From contig NZ_CP011427.1 in NCBI RefSeq assembly GCF_001506165.1, positions 1,860,001 through 1,924,000 of the forward strand: a stretch of 64,000 nt of DNA, given 5' to 3'. Source of the DNA: Pantoea vagans (lineage in GTDB: Bacteria > Pseudomonadota > Gammaproteobacteria > Enterobacterales > Enterobacteriaceae). Below the pieces are notes generated by a model. That model saw only the letters and a program-made list of their open reading frames with translations. It had not been told where the DNA came from and did not search any database. The translations under genes were made by a program, and so were the position numbers. Shown here piece after piece: positions 11,605 to 17,294 of the stretch. Each line of letters starts with the position of its first letter. Position 1 is the first letter of the stretch.

Positions 11605-13086
11605 ATGAGTATGCGTAACATTGTTGCCATTGATTTAGGCGCATCCAGCGGGCGCGTGATGCTCGCGCAGTGGACCTCGACCAGCCAAAAGCTAAGCCTG
11701 CGTGAAGTGTGCCGCTTTCCCAATCAACGTATACGCCGTGCGGGCTACGACTGCTGGGACCTTGACCGTCTGGAGCAAGAGATTCGGGCTGGGTTAGCAC
11801 AGCTGGATGATGAGGGCATCGTGCTGGACAGTATCGGTATTGATACCTGGGGCGTGGACCTGGTGCTGCTGGATGCCAACGGGAATCGTGTCGGTGAGGC
11901 GGTGAGTTATCGTGACCCGCGCACTGACGGGCAGATGTCGCAGGCCATCAACGATCTCGGAAAGGCGGCCATCTACCAACGCACCGGCATTCAGTTTCTG
12001 CCCTTCAACACGATCTATCAACTGCGCGCGCTGCACCAGCAGCAGCCAGACTGGCAAGCGCAGGTGAAACACGCGCTGATGATCCCGGATTATCTGCATT
12101 ACCGTCTGACCGGCAGGATGAACTGGGAATACACCAACGCCACCACCACGCAGTTACTGAACATCGAAACCGGTGAGTGGGACAGCGATCTGCTGGCCTG
12201 GGCGGGCGTTGATGCCGCCTGGTTTGGCAAGCCCAGCGCGCCAGGCAACACCGTGGGTTACTGGTCAAATGCCACGGGTAAAGCGATTCCCGTTATTGCC
12301 GTGGCAACCCACGACACCGCCAGTGCGGTAGTCGCCACGCCACTGATGCAGGATGATGCTGCCTACCTCAGCTCCGGCACCTGGTCGTTAATGGGCATTG
12401 AAAGTTTGCAGCCCTGTGTCAGCGCCGCTGCGTTGAAAGCCAACATCACCAATGAAGGCGGTGCAGAGGGTTACCGGGTATTAAAGAATATCATGGGCTT
12501 ATGGCTCCTCCAGCGCGTATGCAGTGAGCTGCATATCTCAGATCTCTGCGTCTTGATTGGCGAGGCAGCGCAAGAGCCCGCCTGTCGCACGTTGATCAAT
12601 CCCAACCACCACCGTTTTATTAATCCCAATAGCATGGTGCAGGAAATACAGAACGCCTGTGCCGAGCAACATATGCCAATTCCGCACACCCCTGCGGCTC
12701 TTGCGCGCACCATCTTTGACAGCCTGGCGTTGCTGTACCGCCAGGTGATCGGCGAGCTTAGCCAGTTGCGCGATGCGCCAATACGCCAGCTCCATGTGGT
12801 GGGCGGGGGGAGCCAGAATCCGCTGTTGAACCAGTTATGCGCCGATGCCTGTCAGTTACCGGTACTCGCCGGACCGATTGAAGCCTCAACCCTGGGGAAT
12901 GTCGGCTGCCAGCTGATTGCACTCGGTGAGTTGCGCGATGTGGCCGATTTACGCCGCTGCATCAGCCAGAATTTCCCGTTAGAAACTTTTGAACCTCAGC
13001 GCTCAAGCGTCTTCGCAGCCCACCAGGCACGATTTTCCGCGCTGAGCCAACCTGCTAAGGAACTTGCTTATGACAAAGCTGATTGA
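11605..13086 (+). CDS. rhaB: Rhamnulokinase
   Basis: FGGY-family sugar kinase that phosphorylates L-rhamnulose to L-rhamnulose 1-phosphate with ATP. It has 493 residues against 489 in E. coli. The N-terminal phosphate loop ([14 protein letters not shown]), [44 protein letters not shown], and the C-terminal [13 protein letters not shown] and EASTLGN motifs are all present. AGGAAG precedes the ATG. It is the first gene of the rhaBADM unit and overlaps rhaA by 17 bases. Confidence 0.96.
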
Positions 13087-14326
13087 ACAAGCTTATGAAC
13101 TGGCTAAACAACGTTACGCTGCCGTAGGAATTGATGTGGAGCAGGTGATGACGCAATTGGATGGGATTCCTGTGTCGATGCACTGCTGGCAAGGGGATGA
13201 CGTGCGCGGCTTCGAAAACCCCAACGGCGAACTCACCGGCGGGATTCAGGCCACAGGTAACTATCCGGGACGCGCGCGTAATGCGCATGAACTGCGCGCC
13301 GATATCGAAAAAGCCATGTCGCTGATTCCAGGCGCTAAGCGCCTCAATCTGCACGCCATCTATCTGGAAAGCGACACGCCGGTAGAACGTGATGCTATCG
13401 AACCGCAACACTTCAGCCACTGGGTGGAGTGGGCAAAACAGCATAAATTAGGGCTCGATTTTAATCCAAGCTGCTTCTCGCATCCTTTAAGTGCCGATGG
13501 TTTTACCCTGTCACACGCTGACAAAGGCATCCGCCAGTTCTGGATTGATCACTGCAAGGCCAGTCGCCGCATCTCGGCACATTTTGGTGAACAACTGGGC
13601 ACGCCCTCAGTGATGAACATCTGGGTTCCGGACGGTATGAAAGATCTCACCATTGATCGCCTGGCGCCGCGTGAACGTTTAGCCAGCGCGCTGGATGAAG
13701 TGATCAGCGAAAAACTCGATGCCAGTCATCATATCGACGCCGTCGAAAGTAAGTTATTCGGGATTGGTGCCGAGAGTTACACCGTGGGATCCAATGAGTT
13801 TTGCCTTGGCTACGCTGCCAGCCGCCAGACCGCGCTGACGCTTGATGCCGGGCATTTCCATCCCACTGAAGTGATCTCCGACAAAATCTCCACCGCGATG
13901 CTGTATGTCCCGCGCCTGTTATTGCACGTCAGCCGTCCGGTGCGTTGGGACAGCGACCATGTGGTGCTGCTGGATGATGAAACCCAGGCTATTGCCACTG
14001 AAATTGCGCGTAACAAGCTGTTCAACAAAGTGCATATCGGCCTCGACTTCTTTGATGCTTCTATCAACCGCATCGCGGCGTGGGTGATTGGTACCCGCAA
14101 TGCCAAAAAGGCGTTACTGCGTGCGCTGTTGGAGCCGAGTGACCAACTGCGCAAACTGGAGCAGGAGGGGGATTACACCGCACGTCTGGCGCTGCTGGAG
14201 GAGCAAAAGTCATTGCCATGGCAGGCTGTCTGGGAAGCCTGGTGCTTGCGTCACGATGTCCCTGCTGATGCCAGTTGGCTCAGCGAAGTCCGTCATTATG
14301 AACAACAAACACTGCGTCTACGTTAA
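13070..14326 (+). CDS. rhaA: L-rhamnose isomerase
   Basis: Converts L-rhamnose to L-rhamnulose in the cytoplasm; a manganese- and zinc-dependent TIM-barrel enzyme. The 418 residues compare with 419 in E. coli. Blocks such as [66 protein letters not shown] and [19 protein letters not shown] carry the metal and substrate ligands. The start at 13070 (MTKLIEQ) is chosen over an in-frame ATG six bases earlier because AAGGAA is better spaced and E. coli starts there. The start lies inside rhaB, which suggests coupled translation. Confidence 0.96.
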
Positions 14327-14336
14327 GGGATAACCC

Positions 14337-15182
14337 ATGCAAAACACGATTCTCGCTTCTTCATTTGTGCAGGATATGGTCAAGGCGACCAGTGATATGT
14401 GGTTAAAAGGCTGGGACGAGCGCAACGGGGGCAATGTCAGTTTGCGCTTGCTGCCGGAAGAGGCGCTGGCCTGGTCAGCTGATTTTTATGCCGAACCGCG
14501 CTGCATCGAGTTAACCAAACCCGCACCGGCACTGGCGAATGACTGGTTCCTGGTGACCGGCTCGGGCAAATTTTTCCGCAATGTGCAGCTTGATCCCGCC
14601 GACTGCCTGGCGTTACTTCAGGTTGACGACAAAGGGCTGTCCTACAAAATTCACTGGGGTTTGAGTCACGGTGGCTTGCCAACGTCAGAGCTGGCGGCTC
14701 ATTTCCAGTCGCACAGCGTGCGCAAGCAGGTCTCTAACGGCGCTGACCGCGTCATTATGCACTGCCATGCCACGAATTTTATGGCGTTGAGTTATGTGGT
14801 GAACCTTGATTCTGCACGCTTCACCCGTTTGCTGTGGGAAGGCAGCACCGAGTGTCTGGTGGTGTTCCCGGATGGCGTTGGCATCCTGCCGTGGATGGTG
14901 CCGGGTACCGATCAGATCGGCCAGGCTACTGCGGATGCCATGGCATCACACAGTCTGGTGATGTGGCCGTTCCACGGTATCTTTGGTGCAGGCCCGAATC
15001 TGGATGAAACTTTTGGCCTGATCGATACCGCAGAGAAGTCCTCTGAAGTGGTGGTGAAAGCCTTGTCGATGGGCGGCATTCGCCAGAGTATCACCACGGA
15101 ACAGTTGGTCGCCTTGGGTGAACGCTTTAATGTCAAACCCTGGCCAGCGGCACTGCAGGCGGAGCGCAGCGATGTTGCGTAA
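14337..15182 (+). CDS. rhaD: Rhamnulose-1-phosphate aldolase
   Basis: Class II zinc aldolase that splits L-rhamnulose 1-phosphate into dihydroxyacetone phosphate and L-lactaldehyde. It has 281 residues against 274 in E. coli. The zinc ligands His142, His144 (MHCHATN) and His213 (WPFHG), and the acid-base Glu118 (PTSEL), are present. [15 protein letters not shown] and [10 protein letters not shown] form the phosphate-binding region. It starts 11 bases after rhaA and overlaps rhaM. Its aldehyde product is the substrate of AldA, encoded at 6109. Confidence 0.96.
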
Positions 15183-15486
15183 AGCCTTTGTGATGCAGGT
15201 GCATGCGCACTGTCACGATGAGTACTTGCGCCGACACTCGCCCATCTGGCCGGAGTTGGAAGCAACGTTGAAGGCCCACGGTGCGCACAACTATGCGATT
15301 TGGCTGGATGCCGAGCGTGACCTGTTGTTCGCCAGCGTGGAGATTGAATCAGAAGCGCGCTGGGAAGCGGTGGCGAATACCGAAATATGCCAGCGCTGGT
15401 GGGCCTCGATGAAAGATTTGATGCCGTCAAACGCGGATAACAGCCCGGTCAGTGCTGCATTAAAACCGATGTTTTTTATGCCTTAG
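15172..15486 (+). CDS. rhaM: L-rhamnose mutarotase
   Basis: Interconverts the alpha and beta anomers of L-rhamnose so that RhaA always has its preferred form. The 104 residues equal the E. coli length, with [42 protein letters not shown] and [13 protein letters not shown] in the expected places. The ATG at 15172 lies within the end of rhaD, an 11-base overlap, so translation is coupled. A longer in-frame start at 15118 would overlap rhaD heavily and is rejected. Confidence 0.94.
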
Positions 15487-15530: not shown

Positions 15531-16184
15531 TTACTTCGCGGTTAGCTCACAGTATCCCGCCAACGCGGGCCAAATGGCCATCTGCGTATCCACAATTTTG
15601 TCTAAATCATCGCGTGCTGCACCTTCGCGTGCGCGCACGGACATGCCTTGCAACAGGCAGGCTAAAAAACGCGCCAGGGTTGCGCTGTCAGCGCATTGCG
15701 GCAACTCACCACGCTGCTGTCGGCTATCCAGGAACTGCTGCAAAGCGCGTTCCTGAGCGTGATGCTGCTGCGCCAGCATATGGGCGATCTCTTCCGAACC
15801 CGATGAGAGGGCGCTGGATGTACAAATAAAGAAGCATCCAGCCGGTTTATCACACTCGGTAAAACAGGCCGCAGTGGCGCGGAAATAGGCTTCAATAGCC
15901 GTTTTCACATCGAGAGTGTCATCGTTAAGCACCGCGTTACGCTGGGCGCTAAAGGTTTCGATATAGCGCTGCATCGCGGCGCGAAACAGACCCTCTTTAT
16001 TTTCAAATTCTGCATACAGCGTTGGCGCTTTTGCACCGGTTGCATTGACCAAATCAGACAGCGATGTGCCTTCATAGCCATGCGCCCAGAACAACATCAA
16101 TGCTTTGTCTAATGCATCGTTGCGGTCAAACACTTTTGGGCGGCCACGCGTTTTGCGGTTAACCGTGTCGATAACTTCCGTCAT
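15531..16184 (-). CDS. TetR/AcrR-family transcriptional regulator
   Basis: A 217-residue repressor-type protein. The N-terminal TetR helix-turn-helix (ALDKALMLFWAHGYEGTSLSDLVNATGAKAPTLYAEFENKEGLF, about residues 18-61) is clear and is followed by an all-helical ligand domain containing a Cys-rich patch (CFTECDKPAGCFFICT). The start at 16184 (MTEVIDTVNRK) is preferred over one ten codons upstream because GAGG lies in front of it. The gene stands alone: the divergent side is a gene-free region with structured elements, so no target is suggested by position. Confidence 0.85.
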   Translation of the reverse strand: MTEVIDTVNRKTRGRPKVFDRNDALDKALMLFWAHGYEGTSLSDLVNATGAKAPTLYAEFENKEGLFRAAMQRYIETFSAQRNAVLNDDTLDVKTAIEAYFRATAACFTECDKPAGCFFICTSSALSSGSEEIAHMLAQQHHAQERALQQFLDSRQQRGELPQCADSATLARFLACLLQGMSVRAREGAARDDLDKIVDTQMAIWPALAGYCELTAK

Positions 16185-16256
16185 AGCGCACCTCAATGCG
16201 TTTTGAACATACAAATAAATTACCGATCATTAAATAAAGATGCAAGCGTCGTAGTG

Positions 16257-16490
16257 CTTGCCAGTTAAGAGAATGGCGTTAACGCCGTCTGGAGCCGCAC
16301 CGGGGCTGGCGGTCCTCGCGCCGCTTCGCGGTGCCTTCACTTCACTCGTCTGCCTTACGGACCGGTGCCGATGGAACATCCATGTTCCAGCGCCACCTTT
16401 CGCCCGCGTCCTGCGGGCTCTCCTGGCATACTCGCTCAGCTCAGCGCTGCGGAATGCCTGCCCCGGTGCGGCCCCAGCCAGCTCATGAGC
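16257..16490 (+). repeat. Structured element, copy A (rightward sense)
   Basis: A GC-rich non-coding stretch full of nested inverted repeats. The closing stem is GGAGCCGCACCGGGGCTGGC at 16291-16310, pairing with 16456-16475 at 18 of 20 positions. Inside are GGAACAT/ATGTTCC (16373-16388) and GCCCGC/GCGGGC (16402-16418). GGCGTTAACGCC (16275-16286) and GCTCATGAGC (16481-16490) are perfect palindromes just outside the closing stem. Shared blocks GTCCTCGCGCCGCT, ACGGACCG, CTCCTGGC and CTCAGCGCTGCGGA occur in the same order, on the other strand, in copy B. Reading frames here show no protein likeness. The outer limits are uncertain. It may be a structured RNA or an intergenic repeat; I do not recognise the family. 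Confidence 0.72.
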
Positions 16491-16522
16491 TTCAGTGCGA
16501 CTTGTCAAAAAGGGCACACAGT

Positions 16523-16750
16523 CTGAAGCTATGACGCCTCTGCTGCCCCCTCAGGGCTATCCGCAGCGCTGAGACTTTTACGTTGGGCCAGGAGCCCCAC
16601 GCGGGGAGGCGTGGGGCAGTTCGCGGCCGACCATGGATGGTCATCCGCGAACGGTCCGTCCGGCACGACGTGGAAGTCGAAGGTACCGCGTCAGCGGCGC
16701 GAGGACGGCCCAGAGGGGGCAGTAGTGGCGGCAGAGCCCGCACTGACAAG
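16523..16750 (-). repeat. Structured element, copy B (leftward sense)
   Basis: A diverged copy of the preceding element on the opposite strand. Its closing inverted repeat joins 16534-16557 to 16708-16731 (20 of 24 paired, core CTGCCCCCTC/GAGGGGGCAG). Inner stems are GCCCCACGC/GCGTGGGGC (16594-16617, six-base loop) and TTCGCGG/CCGCGAA (16620-16651) enclosing GACCAT/ATGGTC. The four blocks shared with copy A lie at 16693-16706, 16652-16659, 16587-16594 and 16560-16573, in the mirrored order. The stems of the two copies use different bases yet still pair. The 3' sides of the copies face each other, and AGCTTCAG (16488-16495) with CTGAAGCT (16523-16530) makes a further hairpin between them. Confidence 0.72.
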
Positions 16751-17036
16751 ACAGGCCACTTATTAATAAGCAGCCTGAGTTCTTAACAGACAAGGATTAT
16801 GCAAGCGCCGCAGTTTTTAGCAGTACTGGACTTTGCCCGTTTGTGCTTTTTCGGTTTGCCACCCCTCATACGGATAAGTGAAAAAGGGCTGCGAAGCCCA
16901 TAATCACGCCACTCCCCGTTAAAATAATGGTCGTTAATAAAATGATTGACGCCGGTGCGACTCCGGCGTTAGCATTTACTTAACGGTTGTTAAGTAAATT
17001 CAACCCACCCATTTCATCTGCATAAGAGAGACGATC
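16751..17036. promoter_or_regulatory. Leader region of the DUF1471 gene with two hairpins
   Basis: No convincing gene is seen here. ACGCCGG/CCGGCGT form a hairpin at 16949-16969. ATTTACTTAA/TTAAGTAAAT form a perfect ten-base-pair stem with a CGGTTG loop at 16974-16999, 37 bases before the next start codon. The second could be an operator or a 5' leader structure. A GGGCT/AGCCC stem lies near 16886-16900. Confidence 0.5.
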
Positions 17037-17294
17037 ATGAAAAGCATCAAAATGACATTAGCCGCTGTAGCCCTGTCTTCAATCGCGTTTGGTAGCATGG
17101 CTGCTGAGTTAGTGAACGAAGCACCTTTAAACCAGCAACAAGTTGGCGTGATTAGCGCGTCGGGTAGCACCAATCTGACTTCACTTGAGAATCAGCTATC
17201 GGAGAAGGCGAATGCTGCCGGAGCAAAGTCGTTCCGCATCACTTCGACCTCTGGCAACAACAAGCTAAATGGCACAGCAGTCATTTATAATTAA
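17037..17294 (+). CDS. DUF1471 (YhcN/BhsA-type) periplasmic small protein
   Basis: An 85-residue exported protein of the DUF1471 group, enterobacterial periplasmic proteins often linked to stress or biofilm responses (BhsA, McbA, YhcN). A signal peptide covers about residues 1-22 (ending GSMAA). The mature domain has QQQVGVISASGSTNLTSLEN, then AAGAKSFRITSTSGNNKLNGTAVIY, the usual alpha/beta layout with a C-terminal GTA.IY. AGAGAG precedes the ATG. A hairpin at 16974 in the leader may be regulatory, and a terminator follows. The exact paralogue cannot be named. Confidence 0.85.
   Translation: MKSIKMTLAAVALSSIAFGSMAAELVNEAPLNQQQVGVISASGSTNLTSLENQLSEKANAAGAKSFRITSTSGNNKLNGTAVIYN

Follow-up and report, generated by a model that had tools for sequence, protein, structure and literature searches.

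The stretch of the Pantoea vagans genome analysed here (64 kb, the window) contains, between a TetR gene on the left and a DUF1471-like gene on the right, a 548-bp element at positions 16252-16799. No strand is assigned to it, and its extent is defined by empty orthologous sites in relatives and by repeats elsewhere in the genome. Open reading frames upstream (11605-15486) resemble, by eye, a rhamnose catabolism cluster with kinase, isomerase, aldolase and mutarotase. The element is bounded by 18-bp inverted repeats of the IS4-subgroup type. The left repeat, TAGTGCTTGCCAGTTAAG, occupies 16252-16269 on the plus strand, and the right repeat, read on the minus strand as TAATCCTTGTCTGTTAAG, occupies 16782-16799. 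Each has two mismatches to the consensus of the MITE ends, TAATGCTTGTCAGTTAAG, which is identical to the right end of an IS4-family element of Serratia symbiotica. Directly outside lies an 11-bp target duplication, TGCAAGCGTCG at 16241-16251 and TGCAAGCGCCG at 16800-16810 (both on the plus strand), in which 10 of 11 bases are identical and for which relatives have a single copy. Earlier boundaries, with ends beginning GCGTAATGC and duplications of 8-9 bp, were superseded once the IS4 ends were recognised. Coding content was also rejected, the overlying open reading frames being short, overlapping frames when judged by eye. The initial annotation had described this place as two inverted, diverged copies of a structured element at 16257-16750, with no reverse transcriptase or transposase gene adjoining. 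The absence of such genes agrees with the list of open reading frames, read by eye and without a family search; the range is in the right place but slightly short. What had been missed is that the two copies belong together, as parts of a single transposable element that has IS4-type ends and is flanked by a target duplication. The feature in the window is almost certainly an IS4 MITE with an inverted pair of TwoAYGGAY modules.

Module A lies on the minus strand (16284-16482 with its closing stem, core 16332-16445) and module B on the plus strand (16528-16737, core 16568-16685). The closing stems pair 16284-16315 with 16451-16482 in module A (81% complementary) and 16528-16562 with 16703-16737 in module B (80%). 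Two strings are common to both modules in inverted orientation, 16308-16325 with 16693-16710 (94%) and 16440-16458 with 16555-16573 (89%), and the inner hairpins of both were recovered in the repeat comparison, so that the inverted copies with covarying stems were found again independently. Folded as RNA, module A (minus strand) reaches -112.6 kcal/mol against a mean of -83.1 for shuffled sequences (z -6.7), and module B (plus strand) reaches -138.8 against -94.6 (z -9.7); in neither case was any of 200 shuffles as good. Both modules contain two hairpins with GGA in the loop. On the minus strand, the loop of hairpin 1 of module A is CAGGACG (16407-16413) and that of hairpin 2 is CATGGATG (16377-16384). 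On the plus strand, the corresponding loops of module B are CGGGGAGG (16602-16609) and again CATGGATG (16632-16639).

It had been supposed that no family with such a layout was known and that the copies might found a new one, an entry in some database being allowed for. Both modules match RF01731 (TwoAYGGAY) of Rfam above its gathering score of 43, module A with 44.0 bits at 16349-16425 and module B with 47.7 bits at 16589-16665, which rules out a new RNA family. They are the only matches at this score in the window. The alignments are local, covering model positions 43-123 and 43-121 of 168, and GGA is found in four of four loops, the exact AYGGAY occurring at most in hairpin 2 of each copy. 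With R1, a model derived from 40 diverged modules, the scores are 112.4 bits for module A and 85.5 bits for module B.

The insertion can be seen by comparison with relatives. The TetR gene left of the element was searched in 60 genomes of the genus and matched in 58, the own genome included. Among the best 24 loci besides that of the window, the orthologous site is empty in 24 of 24, with both flanks present in each. The site reads ATGCAAGCGCAGC in seven and a diverged form in nine of the 16 loci that were read in the right direction, and the window has at the same site TGCAAGCGTCG, the element and TGCAAGCGCCG. Another copy in the same genome, L008, is inserted inside a REP hairpin, which two relatives (L175 and L177) keep intact as GGTCGCCATTAATGGCGACC. 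A 136-bp IS4-ended element with a REP-like interior (L182) is found at the L008 site. The spacer of L008 also holds, in another species (L176, genome G020), a decayed TwoAYGGAY-like element, which is a sign of one target used repeatedly. To the right of the element in the window, a perfect 11-bp inverted repeat, ATTTACTTAAC/GTTAAGTAAAT, coincides at 16974-16999 with a promoter-like site of the DUF1471-like gene; the TetR gene is preceded by comparable AT-rich sequence at about 16215-16238. Both sites, which resemble TetR operators, are conserved among relatives, and the element now lies between them.

The initial annotation had suggested looking for many copies with covarying stems, and these exist. 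RF01731 matches 32 times at E <= 0.001 in the genome, a single contig of 4.31 Mb, and 25 of these matches exceed the cut-off; R1 finds at least 38 modules, with 150 of 999 initial candidates scored, and the stems covary across the 40 modules described below. Ten pairs of modules are present, about 240 bp apart, and all are arranged minus then plus, that is, facing outward. Comparison by blast of 16000-17100 with 30 loci of the same genome defines a unit of about 16250-16802, with nine complete or almost complete copies; the other eight are 92-95.5% identical to that of the window. In shorter forms a single module remains, together with one or both of the ends. The two ends could be located in 12 of 19 copies, and 10-14 matching duplication bases (at most three mismatches) in 8 of these 12, the remaining four having no good duplication. 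In one further copy (L065 2231-4223, G000:C1 about 4006230-4008220), whose modules at 4006342/4006582 are among the ten pairs, module A is split by an insertion of 1.45 kb flanked by a 5-bp duplication. At the end of another, three tandem end-like sequences are spaced 44 bp apart (G000:C1 698972-699079; L064 1972-2079). In eight loci (L051, L054, L056, L057, L058, L059, L062 and L063), IS4-end-like sequences adjoin REP hairpins without TwoAYGGAY, in a BIME-like repeated layout; these are perhaps smaller MITEs or relics.

The ends lead to the vehicle. A search of GTDB genomes with the end sequence of the MITE gave 42 stretches, and in three Kosakonia contigs this sequence leads into the tail of a transposase. 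The 93-aa tail matched no Pfam family by itself; its relatives, two full-length transposases, gave PF13006 and PF01609. By tblastn the transposase was found in 315 plasmid records, many annotated as IS4-family transposase, and its identity is 84% to the protein of S. symbiotica and about 39% to that of IS4 of Escherichia coli. IS4 elements with full transposases have the left end TAATGCCGATCAGTTAAG, and the right end of the S. symbiotica element is CTTAACTGACAAGCATTA, the same as the MITE consensus. Ends of the IS4 subgroup follow the consensus -AATR--------WTW---- and are accompanied by duplications of 10-13 bp (PMC2266710). The ends observed here fit this consensus, those of the window with two mismatches each. 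A REP-associated tyrosine transposase is disfavoured as the mover by the inverted ends and the duplications. In the genus, the IS4 transposase was matched in 13 of 61 genomes, fragments included, and one of them (G068) has eight copies without internal stops; intact IS4 elements of the genus have ends that agree with those of the MITE. None was found in the own genome, either with the PF01609 profile or by protein search, and the end of the Kosakonia insertion sequence had no match in E. coli genomes. Relatives of the element itself occur, by blastn, on 47 plasmid records, all from Pantoea; there was no blastn match in 50,697 phage records.

Modules and IS4 ends do not always go together. R1 matches in 25 of the 42 end-carrying stretches (in L218, outside the element), and two modules are present in 14, minus then plus in 14 of 14. 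When eight stretches labelled 'Enterobacter ludwigii EnVs2' are treated as Pantoea, 12 stretches with ends lie outside Pantoea and EnVs2, and among them modules are found only in Silvania (L200), where the first scores 50.6 bits and the second is weak (E 0.042). Among 19 module loci of Pantoea relatives, two have both IS4 ends and two have one end. RF01731 is found in at least 55 of 197 genomes and at least 20 of 79 genera of the order, with no more than 13 candidates scored per genome. In the 24 module loci inspected outside the genus, IS4 ends were nowhere found as a pair, and one end-like sequence turned up by itself (L265). IS4 ends are thus missing from many modules, also within Pantoea, which makes the module older and more widespread than the IS4 vehicle. 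In loci outside Pantoea (L252-L269 and L066-L069), modules are multicopy, often by long AAAAGTAACC-type palindromes, in arrays and without IS4 ends.

The choice of insertion site was analysed with 42 elements having both ends and a duplication, and chosen for having one, from several genera and ranging from a 133-bp MITE to 1.4-kb IS4 copies. The target rebuilt from these insertions is usually a hairpin, with a mean stem of 8.9 pairs against 3.6 in shuffles, and many of the rebuilt targets are REPs or hairpins with a T-run. The target in the window is no strong hairpin, with a stem of 4 pairs against 3.3 when shuffled. Overall, insertion of IS4-subgroup elements and of the MITEs related to them is strongly biased towards REP and terminator-like hairpins. 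The IS4-family element ISRm22 targets REP (PMC1525189), and a strong insertion specificity is recorded for some IS4-subgroup elements (PMC2266710). Four IS4-ended elements of about 146-190 bp in Pseudomonas, Serratia and Budvicia (L195, L211, L227, L229) have other palindromic interiors and lie mostly in terminator-like hairpins. By a simple rule on open reading frames, 12 of 23 copies in the genome are between convergent genes, 10 between co-directional genes and one, that of the window, between divergent genes; a gene end precedes 22 of the 23, the exception being again the copy in the window. Three of these classes are doubtful, resting on frames of 79 aa (L007) and 72 aa (L010) or on a right frame inside an inserted IS (L029), and without them the counts are 11 convergent, 8 co-directional and 1 divergent (n = 20). 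Single modules between co-directional genes have no sense bias (two of four).

Selection on the fold, which the initial annotation had read from two copies, was recovered on a broader basis. In alignment A1, comprising 40 modules of less than 90% identity out of 82 and gathered by the Rfam model, a procedure biased towards pairing, 93.1% of cells pair against 70.9% in shuffled versions, and both sides have changed at 21 of 26 pairs. The covariation score is 0.563, compared with 0.174 +/- 0.011 for shuffles (none of 500 as high) and 0.04-0.08 for slid versions. The loop GGA is kept in hairpin 2 of all 40 modules and in hairpin 1 of 38, and CCAGGA is exact in 28. In a strict scan of the 82 modules, requiring the loop pattern and at least four uninterrupted pairs, at least two GGA hairpins were found in 67, one in 12 and none in three. 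Within the own genome, the A copies (n = 19) have changed at 1 of 114 cells in the GGA loops, 64 of 2204 in the core and 159 of 1848 in the flanks, and their changed pairs are kept in 66 cases and broken in 58. The B copies (n = 16) have changed at 2 of 96, 139 of 2834 and 31 of 568 cells, respectively, core and flanks being hardly different, with 33 changed pairs kept and 60 broken. Selection on the fold is therefore clear between species, whereas for each single copy the evidence is mixed; single copies may be dead or decaying, because broken pairs are common and conservation of the B cores does not exceed that of the flanking sequence. The ratio of G-U to A-C is 21:9 in the 40 modules, 41:20 and 21:13 in own copies and 20:10 in another Pantoea set; own loci give 1:1 and those outside Pantoea 6:5, and the sets overlap. 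As a sign of RNA, this excess of G-U is only suggestive, being too weak to distinguish RNA from DNA.

In the 2010 screen of Weinberg et al. (PMC2864571), TwoAYGGAY was listed as a probable RNA for which a cis-regulatory role is improbable, and the Rfam type of RF01731 is Cis-reg. From its loops, Gardner and co-workers, having Clostridia in mind, predicted that it binds CsrA (PMC4333381); this prediction, unvalidated, is the only functional idea in the literature searched. Inside the element, the promoter scan gave no promoter-like site, and no T-tract terminator was found, the nearest match (16261-16242, minus strand) spanning the left junction. Two GGA hairpins about 30 nt apart suit one CsrA dimer. 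The element is probably a non-autonomous MITE moved in trans by a DDE transposase of the IS4 subgroup. Its two TwoAYGGAY modules face outward from the centre, so that transcription entering from either side would yield exactly one module in sense, which may present two GGA hairpins fit for one CsrA dimer. Most copies sit where read-through could happen, because IS4 elements favour REP and terminator-like hairpins, and the copies might serve as CsrA-binding sites scattered over gene-end regions, either titrating CsrA or marking host transcripts. That a non-autonomous IS4 MITE spreads a structured TwoAYGGAY module for which CsrA binding is probable, as in the published prediction, could equally turn out right or wrong. 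A CsrA-type RNA function would likewise have an even chance of explaining the TwoAYGGAY cargo. It is a tentative and rather doubtful further step that the transposon family spreads working CsrA-binding sites into hairpins behind genes, with one sense module whichever the direction of transcription. If this is true, the MITE copies would change how CsrA controls host genes, or dozens of them would together titrate CsrA like a distributed sponge.

Other roles have to be weighed against CsrA binding. The modules may act as DNA hairpins in the manner of REP and BIME, as sites for proteins or in replication or transposition of the element, RNA being irrelevant. The near-palindromic hairpins fold on the other strand too, arrays and inverted units occur in other species, and the excess of G-U over A-C is weak and absent outside Pantoea. 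However, the GGA loop letters are kept on the sense strand only, and G-U exceeds A-C in four Pantoea sets. In addition, modules occur without IS4 ends, so that they are not needed parts of the IS4 transposon. A role as DNA is unlikely. Much the same low probability is given to a passive MITE, in which a TwoAYGGAY relic recombined between IS4 ends is now functionless and its conservation reflects only the ancestral RNA. The lower rate of change in the A cores than in their flanks and the near constancy of their GGA loops speak against such a relic, as does the recurrence of the same outward-facing pair in several Pantoea and in Silvania. On the other hand, pairs are frequently broken in own copies, some IS4 MITEs have other interiors (L182, L211, L229), and the IS4 transposase is absent from the genome.

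Least probable among the alternatives is a role of the element in mending or substituting for the terminators and REPs split by its insertion, with its hairpins stabilising or ending transcripts from both sides. Insertion into terminator-like hairpins, the very stable folds and the 12 of 23 copies between convergent genes speak for this, but no T-tract terminator lies inside the element, and loop letters are not fixed by stability alone. The prediction of CsrA binding gains a concrete system for tests, since the element is defined, mobile and present dozens of times in a single genome. The element also offers a reason for TwoAYGGAY RNAs occurring as inverted pairs, and the preference of IS4-subgroup elements and MITEs for REP and terminator-like hairpins bears on the evolution of gene ends. 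The TwoAYGGAY motif is not new; that a transposon spreads it merits testing.

The RNA family and the type of vehicle are both known, and the IS4 MITE with an inverted TwoAYGGAY pair is a new combination. No description of it was found among the titles and abstracts searched, with subscription literature mostly outside, and it may be published. RF01731 (PMC2864571) has the same two GGA-loop hairpins and inner closing stem. The matches here are local, and two modules form one mobile element, an arrangement that the consulted part of the family's description does not contain. IS4-subgroup insertion sequences (PMC2266710) have the same type of ends, and the duplications of about 10-14 bp compare with 10-13 bp in the portion of that survey consulted. 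In contrast to them, the element has no transposase gene, measures 548 bp instead of 1400-1650, and has two mismatches per end. The CsrA-sequestering small RNAs of the CsrB/RsmZ type likewise expose GGA in hairpin loops (PMC4333381, PMC4383904), whereas here there are two hairpin GGA sites per module, in dispersed mobile copies in which no promoter or terminator was found. REP and BIME sequences are likewise dispersed, palindromic, near gene ends and arranged in arrays of inverted units (PMC2817692). IS200/IS605-type elements are described in the same source, as far as consulted, as having neither inverted ends nor target duplication; the element in the window has both, which points to a DDE transposase. 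It therefore falls outside the REP/RAYT group, whose members have no inverted ends and no larger duplication, and REPs are here the targets of IS4-type MITEs.
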